Below are positions 10,192 through 42,022 of a stretch of DNA of 64,000 nucleotides, in pieces. The position numbers and the translations under genes were made by a program. The stretch covers positions 1-64,000 of the forward strand of contig LVAT01000020.1 of assembly GCA_001604135.1 (NCBI GenBank), in the 5' to 3' direction. Origin of the DNA: Clostridiales bacterium Firm_14. Its GTDB lineage: Bacteria; Bacillota; Clostridia; Saccharofermentanales; Saccharofermentanaceae. The notes beneath the pieces are model-generated. The model did no database searches. It was given only the letters and a program-made list of their open reading frames with translations, and was not told where the DNA came from. Each line of letters begins with the position of its first letter. Position 1 is the first letter of the stretch.

Positions 10192-10535
10192 CTTAATACT
10201 GGACCGAAGGGTACGTTCCTTGTATCGGCGTTAAAATACCGAGCCAAGTTGACTTCGACCTCGCCATGACCTTCCATCCCGGAAGAGAGCGATAAAGGGG
10301 ATAAGTCAGAATCAGGATTGCAACCTGAGGGAGGCGATGACAGATACAAAGGGATAATGATACTTCTGCGTAGTCACAGGCCGAGCGTTGAATCGGGATC
10401 AAAGTCCGCCCGAGAGCCGTCACACCCAATGAGCGCAGCGGGGAGCAATTCCACCGGGGTGAAAGTCCCATGATCTCGTAACAGCAATGCGAGAGCCCTA
10501 AGGTCGACTACTTTACTACTGCAAAAACGGATTTG
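10192..10535 (+). repeat. Structured ~340-bp repeat, copy 1 (candidate RNA)
   Basis: Closely similar to 10786-11128. At least two stems are preserved by paired substitutions: TCGGG/CCCGA here (10393-10397, 10409-10413) against ACGGGA/TCCCGT in copy 2, and a C-G pair here against T-A there near the 5' end. GAAA-type loops favour the plus strand as the transcribed strand. I do not recognise a known RNA family. Confidence 0.6.
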
Positions 10536-10785: not shown

Positions 10786-11128
10786 ATATTACCAAGCCGT
10801 AAGGAACGTTACTTGTACTGGAGTTAAAATTCCAAGCCAAGTTGACTTCGACCGCGCGAAGACCTTCCGAAAGGGGGAGAGCGATAACGGGGATGAGTCA
10901 GAATCAGGATTGCAACCTGAGGGAGGCGATGACAGGTACAAAGTGATAATGATACTTCTGCGTAGTCACAGGCTGAGCGTTGAAACGGGATTTGTCCTCC
11001 CGTGAGCCGTCGCACCCAATGAGCGCAGCGGGGCAGAAAGCCACCGGGGTGAGAGTCCCATGATCCCGTAGTCAGCAATGCGAGAACCTTATGGTCTATT
11101 GTTTTACTACTGTTAAAAACGGATTTTT
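10786..11128 (+). repeat. Structured ~340-bp repeat, copy 2 (candidate RNA)
   Basis: Second copy, about 250 bp after the first. It shares the blocks GTCAGAATCAGGATTGCAAC, GAGGGAGGCGATGACAG and CACCCAATGAGCGCAGCGGG, and ends with TTTACTACTG...AAAAACGGATTT. Substitutions between copies tend to keep base pairing. Open frames crossing it are not conserved between copies. Confidence 0.6.
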
Positions 11129-22337: not shown

Positions 22338-22403
22338 AGAAAGTCTCCATCATCATGTTAATTCTTTTATTATAAGCCTACTTAATCAATATGTTTATCT
22401 TTT

Positions 22404-29854: not shown

Positions 29855-31153
29855 TCAGGCAAAAGCCTTTTCGAAGGCCTGTGTAAGATCGCTTATGAGA
29901 TCTTCTGCGTCTTCAAGACCAATAGACAGTCTGATAAGGTTAGCCGGAACATCAGCAAGTTCAAGCTGATCGGGTTCAAGCTCAGTATGAGTATTTTCCG
30001 GCGGATTTGTGATGAGTGATCTTACATCGCCGATATTTACGTGATAGTTAAAGTTCTTAAGAGATTTGATAAATATGCCTTCCTGCTCTCTGGTACCCTT
30101 AAAACCGAATGAGAGAAGTGCTCCGGGGCCCTTAGGGAAATCCCTGTCAGCTAAATCTTTAAACTGGCTTCCCTTTGCATATGGATATCTTACAAACTCT
30201 ACCTCATCGCGGCTCTCAAGGAATTCAACGACCTTTCTTACTGTCTGGACCTTCTTATCAAGTCTTACTGAAAGCGTCGATAAGCCCTGAAGAACAAGAT
30301 AAGACTCGAAAGAACCTAAAGCACCGCCGAAAAACTCAGTGAAGAAGATCTTAAGGGATGCAATAACAGGTGCACCGGGAATGAACTCAACAGCGCTTCT
30401 CTTATTATTCTGAAGATCTCTCATCTTCCAGCTCTTCTCATAGAACTGGGGATACTTCTTCTCATCGAACGGGAAGTCACCCTTCTCAACAACGATTCCT
30501 GCAATTACATTGCCGTGACCGTTGATCTCCTTGGTTGCAGAGTAAACGATAATGTCTGCGCCATGCTCGAAAGGTCTGTAGAGATACGGTGTAGCTACTG
30601 TATTGTCTACGACAACAGGCACGCCATGTTCATGCGCGATCTTTGCGATAGCATCGATATCATAAAGTTCGATATTAGGGTTACTGATGGACTCAAGGTA
30701 TACCGCTCTTGTATTCTCATCGATAAGTTCACCATATGCTGCGGGATTTGTTCTGTCCTTAACAAATCTCGTATCCACGCCGTACTTAGGCAGGAATTCT
30801 GCAAGATCTAACTGTGCCGCACCGTAAAGTGATGAACCGGCAACGATATTGCCGCCACCTTGTGCAAGTAAAAGAAGCGTATATGTTATAGCAGCCATTC
30901 CTGAAGAAAGTGCTACTGCAGCCTTGCCTCCGTCAAGTTCTGCTATCCTCGTCTCAAGGATCGATCCTGTCGGAGTGCCCACTCTGGAATAAATACCGCC
31001 TGACTCTGCACCGGTCCAGAGTCTTCTTGTTCTGTCGATATCGTGAAGATCGAATGAAGCGGTCTGATAGATGGGCGGTACTACCGAATTAAAGTGCTCT
31101 GATGATTCATATCCTGCTCTTATAGCCTTTGCGCTGAAACTGTTTTCTGACAT
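29855..31153 (-). CDS. O-acetylhomoserine sulfhydrylase-type PLP enzyme
   Basis: 432 residues of the Cys/Met metabolism PLP family. The lysine that binds PLP is in YSATKEINGHG; the VVVDNTVATPYL segment is typical of the O-acetylhomoserine branch. The reaction would be O-acetylhomoserine plus sulfide or methanethiol to homocysteine or methionine. AGGAGG precedes ATG 31153. A leader-peptide attenuator and a palindrome-bearing promoter lie upstream, indicating sulfur-amino-acid control. A second paralogue is at 38340-39635. With the nitrogenase-like enzyme it could capture released methanethiol. Confidence 0.88.
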   Translation of the reverse strand: MSENSFSAKAIRAGYESSEHFNSVVPPIYQTASFDLHDIDRTRRLWTGAESGGIYSRVGTPTGSILETRIAELDGGKAAVALSSGMAAITYTLLLLAQGGGNIVAGSSLYGAAQLDLAEFLPKYGVDTRFVKDRTNPAAYGELIDENTRAVYLESISNPNIELYDIDAIAKIAHEHGVPVVVDNTVATPYLYRPFEHGADIIVYSATKEINGHGNVIAGIVVEKGDFPFDEKKYPQFYEKSWKMRDLQNNKRSAVEFIPGAPVIASLKIFFTEFFGGALGSFESYLVLQGLSTLSVRLDKKVQTVRKVVEFLESRDEVEFVRYPYAKGSQFKDLADRDFPKGPGALLSFGFKGTREQEGIFIKSLKNFNYHVNIGDVRSLITNPPENTHTELEPDQLELADVPANLIRLSIGLEDAEDLISDLTQAFEKAFA

Positions 31154-38210: not shown

Positions 38211-38339
38211 GCACTTATTCTATACAATTCAATTAAAGCCTGGGTATACATTTTGTTTATCAGGAACGATAACGAACATCTATTATCTTTTAAGTTCCCG
38301 CTATTCTATAATCCCTTCCAACACAGGAGGAGACAAATC

Positions 38340-39635
38340 ATGGCTTACAATTTTGACACATTAAAGATCCGTGCAGGATATGACCCGCTTCAGCATAATC
38401 ATGCCGTAAGCGTACCTATTTATCAGACAGTAGCTTTCGAGATGGGAAGCACTGAAAGAGCTGATGCTTTATTTGCATTTGAACTTGAGGATCCGCTCTA
38501 CACAAGAGTATCCAATCCCACCGTTCAAGTTCTGGAAAAAAGAGTTGCCGCACTTCACGGCGTTGAAAGTGCTGTTGCAGTAGCATCAGGCATGGCCGCC
38601 ATCTCATACACCGCATTGGCCCTTGCAGCACAAGGCGGAAGGATCCTTACAAGCCCGCGCCTCTACGGCGGTGCTGTTGACGGATTCCCCTCGATCCTTG
38701 CAGAACTCGGCGTTAAATATGACATGATCGAGAATCCCGACGATTCTAATGAGTTCGAACGCAATATCAAAGACGATACCAAGGCAATCTATATCGAGAC
38801 CATCTCAAATCCTTTGGCAACAGTCCTTGATTTTGAAGCAATCGCAGACATTGCCCACAAGCATGGTATACCGCTTGTTGTAGATAACACTGCAGCTACG
38901 CCTTACCTCTTCAACCCGTTTGAACATGGCGCAGATATCGTAGTTTATTCGGCAACAAAGGCCTTGTGCGGTCACGGTAATGTTATCGCCGGCCTTATTC
39001 TCGAGAAAGGCACATTCGATTACGGTTCAGGAAAGTTCCCTCTTTTCGAGAAGAAACTGTGGTTTTTAAGAGACAGAAATGACAATCCGAGAAGTATTCT
39101 TGAGTCTTTCCCGAAAACGCCCGTTACCGGAAAGATCAGAGCAGTACACTTGAATTACCTTGGCGCTGCCCTCTCCCCGTTTGATGCATATCTTATTCTT
39201 CTCGGAATCGAGACACTCTCCGAGAGAGTCTCCAAGCAGGTGTCTTCCGCGCTTAAGATTGTGGAATACTTAGACAACAACGAACACGTTAACAGCGTCA
39301 GCTATCCTTATGCCAAGAACAGCAAATATAAGGCTCTTGCCGATAAATACCTTCCTAACGGTGCAGGCGGACTCTTCTCATTTGAGTTCAACGGAACCGA
39401 AGAACAAAAGAGGAAGTTCATCGAAGCAGTTAACATATTCGGCTACCAGGCAAATATCGGTGACGCCAAATCGCTCATTGTAAACCCCGCACAGACAACT
39501 CACGGCGAACTTACATACGAGCAGCGTGATATAACAGGTCTTACTCTCAGTACGATCAGATTATCGATCGGCCTCGAAGATCCACAGGATCTTATCGATG
39601 ACCTTGATCAAGCCTTCGAAAAAGCCTTCAAATAA
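38340..39635 (+). CDS. O-acetylhomoserine sulfhydrylase-type PLP enzyme (second copy)
   Basis: 431 residues starting at ATG 38340 behind AGGAGGAG. PLP-lysine motif YSATKALCGHGNVIAG and IPLVVDNTAATPYLFNP are intact. It is a paralogue of the enzyme at 29855-31153 and among the few plus-strand genes in this part. The reaction is probably O-acetylhomoserine plus sulfide or a thiol. No leader ORF or attenuator is visible upstream, so the two copies seem to be regulated differently. Confidence 0.88.
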   Translation: MAYNFDTLKIRAGYDPLQHNHAVSVPIYQTVAFEMGSTERADALFAFELEDPLYTRVSNPTVQVLEKRVAALHGVESAVAVASGMAAISYTALALAAQGGRILTSPRLYGGAVDGFPSILAELGVKYDMIENPDDSNEFERNIKDDTKAIYIETISNPLATVLDFEAIADIAHKHGIPLVVDNTAATPYLFNPFEHGADIVVYSATKALCGHGNVIAGLILEKGTFDYGSGKFPLFEKKLWFLRDRNDNPRSILESFPKTPVTGKIRAVHLNYLGAALSPFDAYLILLGIETLSERVSKQVSSALKIVEYLDNNEHVNSVSYPYAKNSKYKALADKYLPNGAGGLFSFEFNGTEEQKRKFIEAVNIFGYQANIGDAKSLIVNPAQTTHGELTYEQRDITGLTLSTIRLSIGLEDPQDLIDDLDQAFEKAFK

Positions 39636-40098: not shown

Positions 40099-41058
40099 TC
40101 AGATGATGTAATACCACTCGTCGCTCTGCTTAACCTCTTCACTCTTGGCGTTTTTGCCGTCAGCCTTATTCTCTTTTTCAAGATTGGTCATGCTGACCTT
40201 GGAATTAGGCTCAACAGATGCGGTGATAAATGAGTTGCCGCCGATTACGGTGTTCTCGCCGATAACGGTATTGCCGCCGAGGATTGAAGCATTCGCGTAG
40301 ATGGTAACGTTATCGCATATCGTAGGATGACGCTTCTTGCCTGAGAGCTTCTGGCCGCCTCTTGTAGAGAGAGCACCAATAGTTACACCCTGGTAGATCT
40401 TTACGTTGCTGCCGATTATGGATGTCTCACCTACAACGATACCCGTGCCGTGATCAATGAAGAAATACTTGCCGATCGTAGCACCCGGATGGATATCGAT
40501 TCCCGTCTCGGAATGAGCATATTCGGTCATGAGACGCGGCAGGATCGGGACTTTCAAAAGATACAGCTCATGCGCAATTCGATAAACCGTGATCGCCATA
40601 AGTCCGGGATATGCGAGGATGACTTCATCGAAGTTAGCTGCAGCGGGGTCGCCGTCCAATGTAGCCAGAAGGTCTGTCTCAATATATTCCCTGATCATGG
40701 GGATCTTCTTGAAGAATTCCGTCGTGATGCGGTAGCTCTCTTCCTCGCGCTTCTCATCAGTCATCTTGTCGTCACTCTGGGAATAATCGAGAGCCCTGTA
40801 GATCTGCTTTTTCAAGTGATAGAAAACATCTTCGATCGTTACCGCGAAGGAGTTCTTCGGATTATAGATCTTATATGTGAGATCGCGGAAATATCCGGGA
40901 TAGATGATCCTGAAGAAATGCTCTACAAGCTCTCTTACCTCATCCTTGTCAGGATTGCTGAACAGCTTTATAGCATCAATATTCTTTCCGCCGTTATAGT
41001 CATCAAATATAGCCTGGACAATCTGGTCGATCTCTTCATGCATGGCATCTTTAGTCAT
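40099..41058 (-). CDS. cysE: Serine O-acetyltransferase
   Basis: 319 residues, of the longer EpsC/SatA-like type. The left-handed beta-helix of hexapeptide repeats starts with the HIS motif region IDIHPGATIGKYFFIDHGTG and continues (VVGETSIIGSNVKIYQGVTI, TICDNVTIYANASILGGNTV). It makes O-acetylserine from serine and acetyl-CoA, the first step of cysteine synthesis. Its 5' region carries a leader ORF with five consecutive Cys codons and a terminator/antiterminator pair, so it is almost certainly controlled by cysteine supply. Confidence 0.9.
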   Translation of the reverse strand: MTKDAMHEEIDQIVQAIFDDYNGGKNIDAIKLFSNPDKDEVRELVEHFFRIIYPGYFRDLTYKIYNPKNSFAVTIEDVFYHLKKQIYRALDYSQSDDKMTDEKREEESYRITTEFFKKIPMIREYIETDLLATLDGDPAAANFDEVILAYPGLMAITVYRIAHELYLLKVPILPRLMTEYAHSETGIDIHPGATIGKYFFIDHGTGIVVGETSIIGSNVKIYQGVTIGALSTRGGQKLSGKKRHPTICDNVTIYANASILGGNTVIGENTVIGGNSFITASVEPNSKVSMTNLEKENKADGKNAKSEEVKQSDEWYYII

Positions 41059-41081: not shown

Positions 41082-41119
41082 AAAAAACCCGAAAACTTCA
41101 TTGTTTCCGGGTGAATCTT
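41082..41119 (-). terminator. Attenuator of the serine acetyltransferase gene
   Basis: On the minus strand ACCCGGAAAC (41103-41112) pairs with GTTTTCGGGT (41087-41096), then TTTTTT. The segment AAGATTCACCC (41109-41119) overlaps the 5' arm and is complementary (one bulge) to GGGTGAGATCTT (41171-41182) at the leader stop codon, giving an alternative antiterminator. Confidence 0.85.
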
Positions 41120-41176
41120 ACTTACAAATCATTTTTATTCCGGCACTCATCGCATACGAACTGCGCCCTTAAGATC

Positions 41177-41230
41177 TCACCCTTGGGACAAACAGCAACA
41201 ACAACATAAAAGATTGTTCTCAAATGTCAT
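41177..41230 (-). CDS. Cysteine leader peptide of the serine acetyltransferase attenuator
   Basis: ATG 41230 to TGA 41177 encodes MTFENNLLCCCCCLSQG, with five Cys codons in a row. A ribosome finishing at TGA would cover the antiterminator segment at 41171-41182 and allow the terminator to form. A ribosome stalled at the Cys codons would leave it free, so transcription continues into the cysE-type gene. AAAGG lies 11 nt before the ATG, a weak ribosome site. Confidence 0.85.
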   Translation of the reverse strand: MTFENNLLCCCCCLSQG

Positions 41231-41262
41231 ATGCAACTATACCTTTCTTTTTCTTATTATGG

Positions 41263-41291
41263 ATTCTATCAACAATTACCTACCCAGTCAA
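41263..41291 (-). promoter_or_regulatory. Promoter of the serine acetyltransferase gene
   Basis: -35 TTGACT (41286-41291), 17-bp spacer, -10 TAGAAT (41263-41268). TTACCTA (41276-41282) lies between them; its partner half (TCGGAAT, 41292-41298) is degenerate. The half-site position relative to the -35 is the same as at the sulfhydrylase promoter. Confidence 0.75.
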
Positions 41292-41305
41292 TCGGAATGA
41301 CTTTG

Positions 41306-42022
41306 TCAGGCAGCTTGACCGGTCAACAGCAGTTTTAACAGGAAAAGCAGCAGAAGATGGCCGGGATAGAACGCATAGAACAGCCATTTAAGCCCCTTGC
41401 CCTTCTTTCCGTTATACAGCAAGAGCGGCACTATACTTAATCCTGTCGTACAGTAGTAACCCATCGTTCTTGTAAGTGCCAGGAAGGCGACTCCGGGGAT
41501 CGGCCTGACATAATGATTCACATCCTTAAACACATAGAACAGGAACACTGATGCTACTGCAAACATCGTATAATCCGCTTTAACCAGCATAGCAACGACC
41601 GCCATGGCAATGACAGCCAAAACCCCAAGCATGGTCCTCCACACACTGTATCTGCCTTTGATCTCACTTTTCGGACCCCTGATAAGATCGAAAAGCATCA
41701 GCGCAGCTATGGAGATAAAGAAGGACAGCATAATATTCTGGTGAGAAAGATTGATATTTCCTTCAAAAGCCAGATCGAAGGGCACCTCACTGACAAGAGC
41801 GAAAATTCCCATTCTAAGAAGATACTTATTCCTGTTCCGGGTATGAATATATCCTTCGGCAATACAGAAAGCGAAGATCGGCATCGCAAGTCTTCCGACC
41901 ATCCTCAGCCAGATGATATCAGGGAAAAACACATCACCCACATGATCAAAGGCCATACTGATCATGGCAATGATCTTGAGCATTGTCCCGTCTAAACATC
42001 TGATGCCTTGAGTTTTTCCCAT
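41306..42022 (-). CDS. TraX family membrane protein
   Basis: 238 residues with multiple predicted transmembrane segments. The N-terminus (GTMLKIIAMISMAFDHVGD, then MVGRLAMPIFAFCIAEGYIHT) is the TraX signature. In F plasmids TraX acetylates pilin; chromosomal homologues in Clostridia are of uncertain role and related to membrane acyltransferases. It lies between the cysteine-synthesis gene and the pilus regulators, with no clear operon link. Confidence 0.8.
   Translation of the reverse strand: MGKTQGIRCLDGTMLKIIAMISMAFDHVGDVFFPDIIWLRMVGRLAMPIFAFCIAEGYIHTRNRNKYLLRMGIFALVSEVPFDLAFEGNINLSHQNIMLSFFISIAALMLFDLIRGPKSEIKGRYSVWRTMLGVLAVIAMAVVAMLVKADYTMFAVASVFLFYVFKDVNHYVRPIPGVAFLALTRTMGYYCTTGLSIVPLLLYNGKKGKGLKWLFYAFYPGHLLLLFLLKLLLTGQAA

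Follow-up and report, generated by a model that had tools for sequence, protein, structure and literature searches.

The classical leader-peptide attenuators are those of trp, his, leu and ilv in Proteobacteria. The leader analysed here, upstream of a serine acetyltransferase-like gene, would have in common with them the tandem regulatory codons, the ribosome-dependent antiterminator, the intrinsic terminator and a gene of the same pathway, and it differs from them in the use of Cys as regulatory codon, in its occurrence in Clostridia and in that no protector (1:2) hairpin is found. Outside Proteobacteria and Actinobacteria, the relevant passage of a 2010 study names ermC as the only leader-peptide system known to its authors until their own His leader in bacilli (PMC2965389), and an excerpt of PMC9413887 relates that predictions of His leaders later came to include some Eubacteriales. 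By the descriptions in these two papers (PMC2965389, PMC9413887), the His leader-peptide attenuators of Firmicutes, including some Eubacteriales, stand in place of T-boxes; they are likewise leader peptides in Firmicutes, but concern histidine and other genes.

For cysteine, uORFC-8-2 of Rhodobacterales is presented in part of PMC8632094 as a tandem-Cys uORF with a terminal U-run, for which Cys attenuation was proposed. It has two tandem Cys codons located in a stem and lies upstream of cysS in alphaproteobacteria (PMC8632094), while the leader here has five and another gene, and we rejected membership in uORFC-8-2 because the downstream gene and the lineage both differ. In Actinobacteria, runs of Cys codons precede cys operons (PMC1262725; mycobacterial work cited in PMC13236596), and the passages of these papers on Mycobacterium propose Rho-dependent termination or translational control and report that a conserved terminator hairpin was not found, unlike here. 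The better-known controls of cysteine genes in Firmicutes are Cys T-boxes, CymR-type repressors and CysR. According to a section of PMC2940859, cysKE of Clostridium perfringens is under a Cys T-box, which would share with the present leader the genes, the signal of Cys-tRNA charging and the premature termination; there the RNA senses the tRNA directly (PMC2940859), whereas the present leader has no T-box match. For clostridia without a T-box at cysK, that section suggests other mechanisms (PMC2940859). The matches listed from the open-licence PMC literature included no leader-peptide attenuator of Clostridia with Cys or Met/Cys codons.

Leader region of the serine acetyltransferase gene

The window, that is, the whole stretch of 64,000 nucleotides analysed here from Clostridiales bacterium Firm_14, carries on its minus strand a serine O-acetyltransferase-like gene of the cysE/epsC family (40099-41058), with 153.8 bits against the EpsC model (cut-off 150) and 165.2 bits against the TIGR01172 cysE model, below the cut-off of 210.65. 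Serine acetyltransferase is the enzyme making O-acetylserine, and this gene, the putative target of regulation, fits the Cys pathway. The window also has two O-acetylhomoserine (OAH)/O-acetylserine (OAS) sulfhydrylase-like genes, at 38337-39635 (+) and 29855-31153 (-). An earlier note on this DNA had claimed, on the minus strand upstream of the serine acetyltransferase gene, a promoter, a 17-residue leader ORF with five consecutive Cys codons, an antiterminator pair at the leader stop codon and an overlapping 10-bp terminator with a T-run; each of these parts is recovered by our analysis, with the downstream assignment passing the EpsC cut-off and falling short of that for cysE.

The predicted promoter, TTGACT-17-TAGAAT at 41291-41263 (-), is of sigma-70 type, with 10 of 12 consensus matches and a TG before the -10 element. 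Promoter-like sites are frequent in shuffled sequence, at a mean of 1.7 per region, and the support for this one therefore lies in its conservation. The promoter overlaps, on the same strand, a candidate operator in which the inverted repeat TTACCTA-N9-TAGGTAA is imperfect. Downstream there follow a Shine-Dalgarno-like AAAGG (41246-41242, -) and the leader ORF MTFENNLLCCCCCLSQG, 17 codons from ATG 41230 to TGA 41177 (-), whose five tandem Cys codons, TGT TGT TGT TGC TGT at 41206-41192 (-), are the proposed stall site. The peptide may be of 19 residues, since the spacing from AAAGG is more favourable for a TTG at 41236 than for the ATG at 41230, and the near relative L043 has ATG at the position of this TTG. 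Directly upstream of the whole region lies a TraX-family gene (Pfam TraX) at 41306-42022 (-).

The first strand of the antiterminator, GGGTGAGATCTTA at 41182-41170 (-), holds the leader stop codon; a linker hairpin (41168-41142, -) separates it from the second strand, TAAGATTCACCC at 41120-41109 (-), whose ACCC is at the same time the base of the terminator 5' arm. Folded in isolation, the antiterminator segment has -21.9 kcal/mol (z -3.0). The intrinsic terminator at 41112-41082 (-) is made of a 10-bp stem with a 6-nt loop (41112-41087, -13.6 kcal/mol, z -4.0) and a T-run at 41087-41082.

The Cys run itself is rare by chance. Five successive TGY codons in any frame are expected 0.02 times per window (2 in 100 shuffles), and a CCCCC leader appears in none of 3000 shuffles of the promoter-to-terminator stretch, while the weaker feature of three Cys within five codons appears in 57 of 3900 shuffles of 13 homologous stretches. 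A broad scan for the TGY run, in which frames were not separated, matches 78 of 85 genomes of the genus and matches the reversed control too.

As for known RNA regulators, a T-box at this gene was rejected, with no covariance-model match in the window or in 20 serine acetyltransferase loci; elsewhere in the genome there are five T-box matches, one of them over the cut-off. A SAM or other Rfam cis-regulator was likewise rejected, with no match at the cysE leader. Other RNA features of the window are two matches to the pemK RNA motif (RF02913) at 10354-10473 and 10946-11063 (+), about 600 bases apart, and a tmRNA at 2468-2846.

Recurrence of the Cys leader in relatives

Relatives of the serine acetyltransferase were detected in 59 of 85 genomes of the genus and 77 of 115 of the family (E <= 1e-60). 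We then compared 82 upstream regions drawn from genus, family and order, leaving out L027-L030 (partial gene match), L098-L100 (gene start unmatched) and L031-L041 (promoter matches, mostly duplicate loci), together with 79 further regions from named genomes at 46-77% identity, an 80th (L178) having no upstream sequence. When a Cys-run leader is defined as a short ORF with at least three Cys in five codons, the comparative search that the earlier note had proposed as a check gives such leaders in 13 of the 82 related regions and in none of the 79 named serine acetyltransferase loci.

The promoter motif, searched with a loose pattern widened to admit the form of L003 and L044, is present in 24 of the 82 regions; all 13 loci with a Cys leader are among these 24, each of them with a terminator, and the other 11 have no Cys leader. 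Three of these 11 (L005, L045 and L046) have the cysE promoter with a terminator close behind and lack the Cys leader, and loci as near as L007 (about 87% identity) have neither promoter motif nor leader. On the whole, the 13 loci represent about four lineages. Seven are very close relatives of the window (CCCCC), and the remaining lineages are L006 (CCCCC), L009 and L051 (CCCIC, CCCFC), and L015, L058 and L059 (CCTCC, CTCC, CSCC). The residues flanking the Cys run vary between lineages, as in MTFENNLL-CCCCC, MSFIRFS-CCCCC, MFSKKHTI-CCCIC and ...IA-CCTCC.

Antiterminator and ribosome geometry

In all 13 loci, RNAduplex pairs the segment after the Cys codons with the 5' side of the terminator, and for 11 loci no more than 9 of 500 shuffles give a duplex as good or better, the other two being L006 (81/500) and L059 (40/500). 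These pairs were scored sequence by sequence; MAFFT misplaces a bulge in L004, L042 and L043. In L015, L058 and L059 the layout is kept with a helix of unrelated sequence (ACTCCCGTA/TACGGGAGT in L015). The formal covariation counts come from the sister leaders described below. The core of strand 1 starts 8-12 nt past the last Cys codon in 13/13 loci, about where the leading edge of a stalled ribosome would be, a spacing that refers to the core helix only: in 10 of the 13, the optimum given by RNAduplex is extended towards the Cys run by weak pairs (gap 0-4 nt).

If the leading edge of the ribosome is assumed to lie at +15 from the P-site codon, and the pairing is scored before the 3' arm of the terminator emerges, the modelled pairing of strand 1 with strand 2 amounts to 7.9-16.6 bp while the A site holds a Cys codon, the last Cys of L009 (3.2) being the exception, and is mostly gone a few codons beyond the last Cys in all 13 loci. 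The claim of the earlier note that stalling at Cys frees the first segment thus agrees with the model at every locus, with L009 low at its last Cys. Its further claim that finishing at TGA hides this segment fits 10 of the 13 loci and does not fit L006, L009 and L059, where the leader stop codon is past strand 1, so that a finished ribosome would not cover it and occlusion must occur in transit.

When the full transcript is folded at equilibrium, the terminator is favoured in most of the 13 loci at every ribosome position. In L001, L002, L003 and L044 its value falls over the first four Cys codons to about 0.36-0.53 and is 0.82-0.90 at the fifth, with values lowered already ahead of the Cys run in L001 and L002; the dip is mild in L004, L042, L043 and L051 and absent from the remaining five loci. 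Because equilibrium favours the terminator in most loci, the model requires that the antiterminator forms first, co-transcriptionally. We did not find a protector (1:2) hairpin at cysE, and the ribosome-free RNA still forms the antiterminator in the model; untranslated leader RNA should therefore read through by default, unlike in trp. The classical attenuation geometry put forward in the earlier note is accordingly supported for leader, antiterminator and terminator, which recur at 13 loci, and departs from the classical form in that no protector hairpin is found.

Leaders of mixed Met and Cys codons

This genome has at least three leaders of such kinds, located upstream of cysE, of an OAH sulfhydrylase-like gene in the window and of a MetQ lipoprotein gene elsewhere, and the promoters of the latter two are of the same kind as that of cysE. 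On the minus strand of the window, the second promoter at 31417-31382 includes a perfect inverted repeat TTACCTATTGACATAGTAGGTAA (31417-31395); it precedes a leader ORF of the M-C-C-R-M type (MNRISANIMMCCRMLNSRANGLTGVSCRCLK, 31350-31255), a candidate antiterminator strand 1 (AACTCCCGGGC, 31305-31295), a terminator at 31223-31189 whose 5' part GCCCGGGAGTT (31222-31212) serves as strand 2, and the O-acetylhomoserine/O-acetylserine sulfhydrylase-like gene (29855-31153). The antiterminator and terminator here are built on CCCGGG. The MetQ leader of this genome is MYNQITITTNSMMCCRMLSSRARKMATAMSSDASRLAKRC. Strand 1 of both leaders begins 9-11 nt beyond the final Cys codon, and its partner is the 5' arm of the terminator. 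An NCBIfam search with the MCCRM peptide of the window gave no family, and the MCCRM leaders tested gave no Rfam match.

For the MCCRM antiterminator, 31 of 39 distinct segments were analysed, L226, L229, L231 and L251 being left out as near-duplicates, L228 for a mis-cut T-run, and L257, L259 and L260 as deviating from the consensus in both strands. Pairing in the antiterminator amounts to 95.6%, and 17 cells carry changes on both sides, a number reached by 0 of 500 shuffles; five pairs have two-sided change, which 24 of 500 shuffles reach. Slid versions of it are 19-50% paired, and the terminator stem has zero two-sided changes. Because the core CTCCCGGG belonged to the search pattern, and L257, L259 and L260 were omitted, the covariation rests on the outer pairs.

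The DNA TGTTGTCGAATG is near-invariant in the MCCRM leaders L222-L251. CGA is found in 29 of these 30 loci, and makes up 4.5% of the Arg codons in 37 long ORFs of the window; TGT makes up 56 of 58 Cys codons, compared with 38% in the same ORFs. A protector hairpin predicted in other families may explain this near-invariance, though only partly. Upstream of strand 2, more than half of the sequence CGAATGN is paired in 47 of 62 leaders, its partners being variable, and a CGAATGC/GC(G/A)TTCG hairpin, which would act as a protector, is predicted in L241, L252, L270, L271, L283, L285, L287 and L305, while MCCRM leaders of the genus type have no clear protector partner for CGAATG.

Distribution of the mixed leaders

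Overall, the DNA pattern of MCCRM with at most two mismatches is detected in 58 of 85 genomes of the genus, against zero in the reversed control. An exact 15-mer occurs in 7 of 391 genomes of the class (six of the genus and one other), and the covariance model R1 in 13 of 391, which spread over five families, namely that of the genus and four others. In the family of one of the genomes, G440, the same model matches 23 of 200 sampled genomes. There, 24 of 26 newly read loci have a short Cys ORF just before R-M, mostly with several Cys and often mixed with Met; L299 has a single Cys before R-M, and L288 and L304, for which the parser gave no leader, may be false or mis-parsed. Variants of the leader include MMCCRM, MCMRM, MCCCRM, MCMCMCRM and MCCMCMCRM. 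Met stands at codon -4 before CGA, a codon outside both the search pattern and the covariance model, in 25 of 40 leaders of the genus and 15 of 27 others, the second L308 match among these 27 looking spurious.

Downstream of these leaders, MetK, and an ABC permease at domain level, score above NCBIfam cut-offs, while OAH sulfhydrylase, a cystathionine enzyme family, MetQ and MetN are best NCBIfam matches below the curated cut-offs. Pfam matches above gathering are NlpA lipoprotein, solute-binding protein, permease, LysR and Cys/Met PLP enzyme. The downstream gene of L307 has no match, and the remaining genes were assigned by N-terminal resemblance alone. At L281 (G440, minus strand), a CCCMCMC leader and a terminator lie directly upstream of a tRNA-Cys (GCA) gene (1501-1430) and metK. 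For a tRNA-Cys gene, control by an attenuator of Cys/Met type would be unusual. At L252 (G250:C11), near the contig start, an MCCRM leader is followed only by what appears by eye as the C-terminal end of a reading frame for cysteine synthase, an arrangement that may be due to truncation or an assembly fault.

Promoter motif and alternative explanations

The motif TTGACNNRGTAGG has six copies in the genome against four in the reversed control, so that the count alone means little and the case rests on context. Four of the six are promoters of sulfur genes, i.e. cysE, the OAH sulfhydrylase-like gene (31410), a cysteine desulfurase (iscS/nifS) and the MetQ-family lipoprotein, while the remaining two resemble chance hits. 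A further copy with one mismatch (TTGATTAAGTAGG, 22377-22389, -) has an ORF close behind, and a Cys leader was not seen there. The repeat TTACCTA-N9-TAGGTAA covers the -35 element of the OAH sulfhydrylase and MetQ leaders and is degenerate at iscS and cysE. Control of such pathways by Rrf2 proteins is known for CymR (PMC2940859) and for IscR. Two Rrf2 matches are found in this genome, one of which (C45:75356-75745, minus) is divergent from iscS with the site in between. The main control could then belong to a repressor of the Rrf2/CymR-IscR type bound at this repeat, leaving leader and terminator as weak fine-tuning or relics, and the 11 regions with the promoter motif and without a Cys leader are in keeping with it. 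We regard this as unlikely. The motif count is close to its control, and leaders of different lineages retain Cys runs, antiterminator and terminator although the remaining residues, and even the sequence of the helix, are altered, so that the attenuator itself appears to be under selection. Repressor and attenuator are, moreover, compatible with each other.

Two further explanations place the control in translation or in the peptide. If the hairpins masked or freed the gene's ribosome-binding site, this would resemble the translation attenuation that an excerpt of PMC13236596, citing Canestrari 2020, ascribes to cysteine genes of M. smegmatis; at cysE, the hairpin followed by a T-run fits an intrinsic terminator, and the ribosome-binding site (41072-41064) is outside both the antiterminator and the terminator helices, which makes such control very improbable. 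Five adjacent Cys, together with the near-invariant DNA around TGTTGTCGAATG and its CGA in the MCCRM family, might also suggest that a Cys-rich peptide acts by itself through metal binding, oxidation sensing or sequence-dependent ribosome arrest. This we find scarcely credible, as the non-Cys residues at cysE are unconserved between lineages while the spacing from Cys to antiterminator is kept.

Proposed mechanism and significance

With a tandem-codon leader ORF, an intrinsic terminator, a conserved and mutually exclusive antiterminator and, in the model, the stall geometry all found at cysE, this leader is very probably a ribosome-mediated transcription attenuator responding to Cys codons. 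We infer that the region is transcribed and its leader translated. When Cys-tRNA is scarce, the leading ribosome would stall when a Cys codon occupies the A site, and its front would then lie just short of strand 1 (GGGTGAGATCTTA), which would then pair with strand 2 (TAAGATTCACCC) and capture the base of the terminator 5' arm, letting RNA polymerase read through into the serine acetyltransferase gene. With ample Cys-tRNA, the ribosome would continue to the stop codon and mask strand 1, leaving strand 2 free, so that the terminator forms and transcription stops ahead of the gene. In this manner the leader would respond to cysteine, and a repressor, likely of Rrf2 type, would add a layer of control at the promoter.

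We further consider it reasonably likely, at a lower confidence than for cysE itself, that these leaders belong to a sulfur-amino-acid attenuation system extending across several families of the class, with a codon run suited to each pathway: Cys only before serine acetyltransferase, and mixed Met and Cys before O-acetylhomoserine sulfhydrylase, cystathionine enzymes, MetQ/MetN transporters and one tRNA-Cys/metK locus. One peptide would thereby sense the charging state of two tRNAs, with an Rrf2-type operator on top at least in the genus. The larger value of the cysE leader lies in the shared system that it indicates. A recurrent Cys leader at cysE together with the wider Met/Cys family would add a sulfur-amino-acid sensing system, and would offer naturally occurring variants with which to examine how the specificity of attenuators depends on codon content and ribosome spacing.
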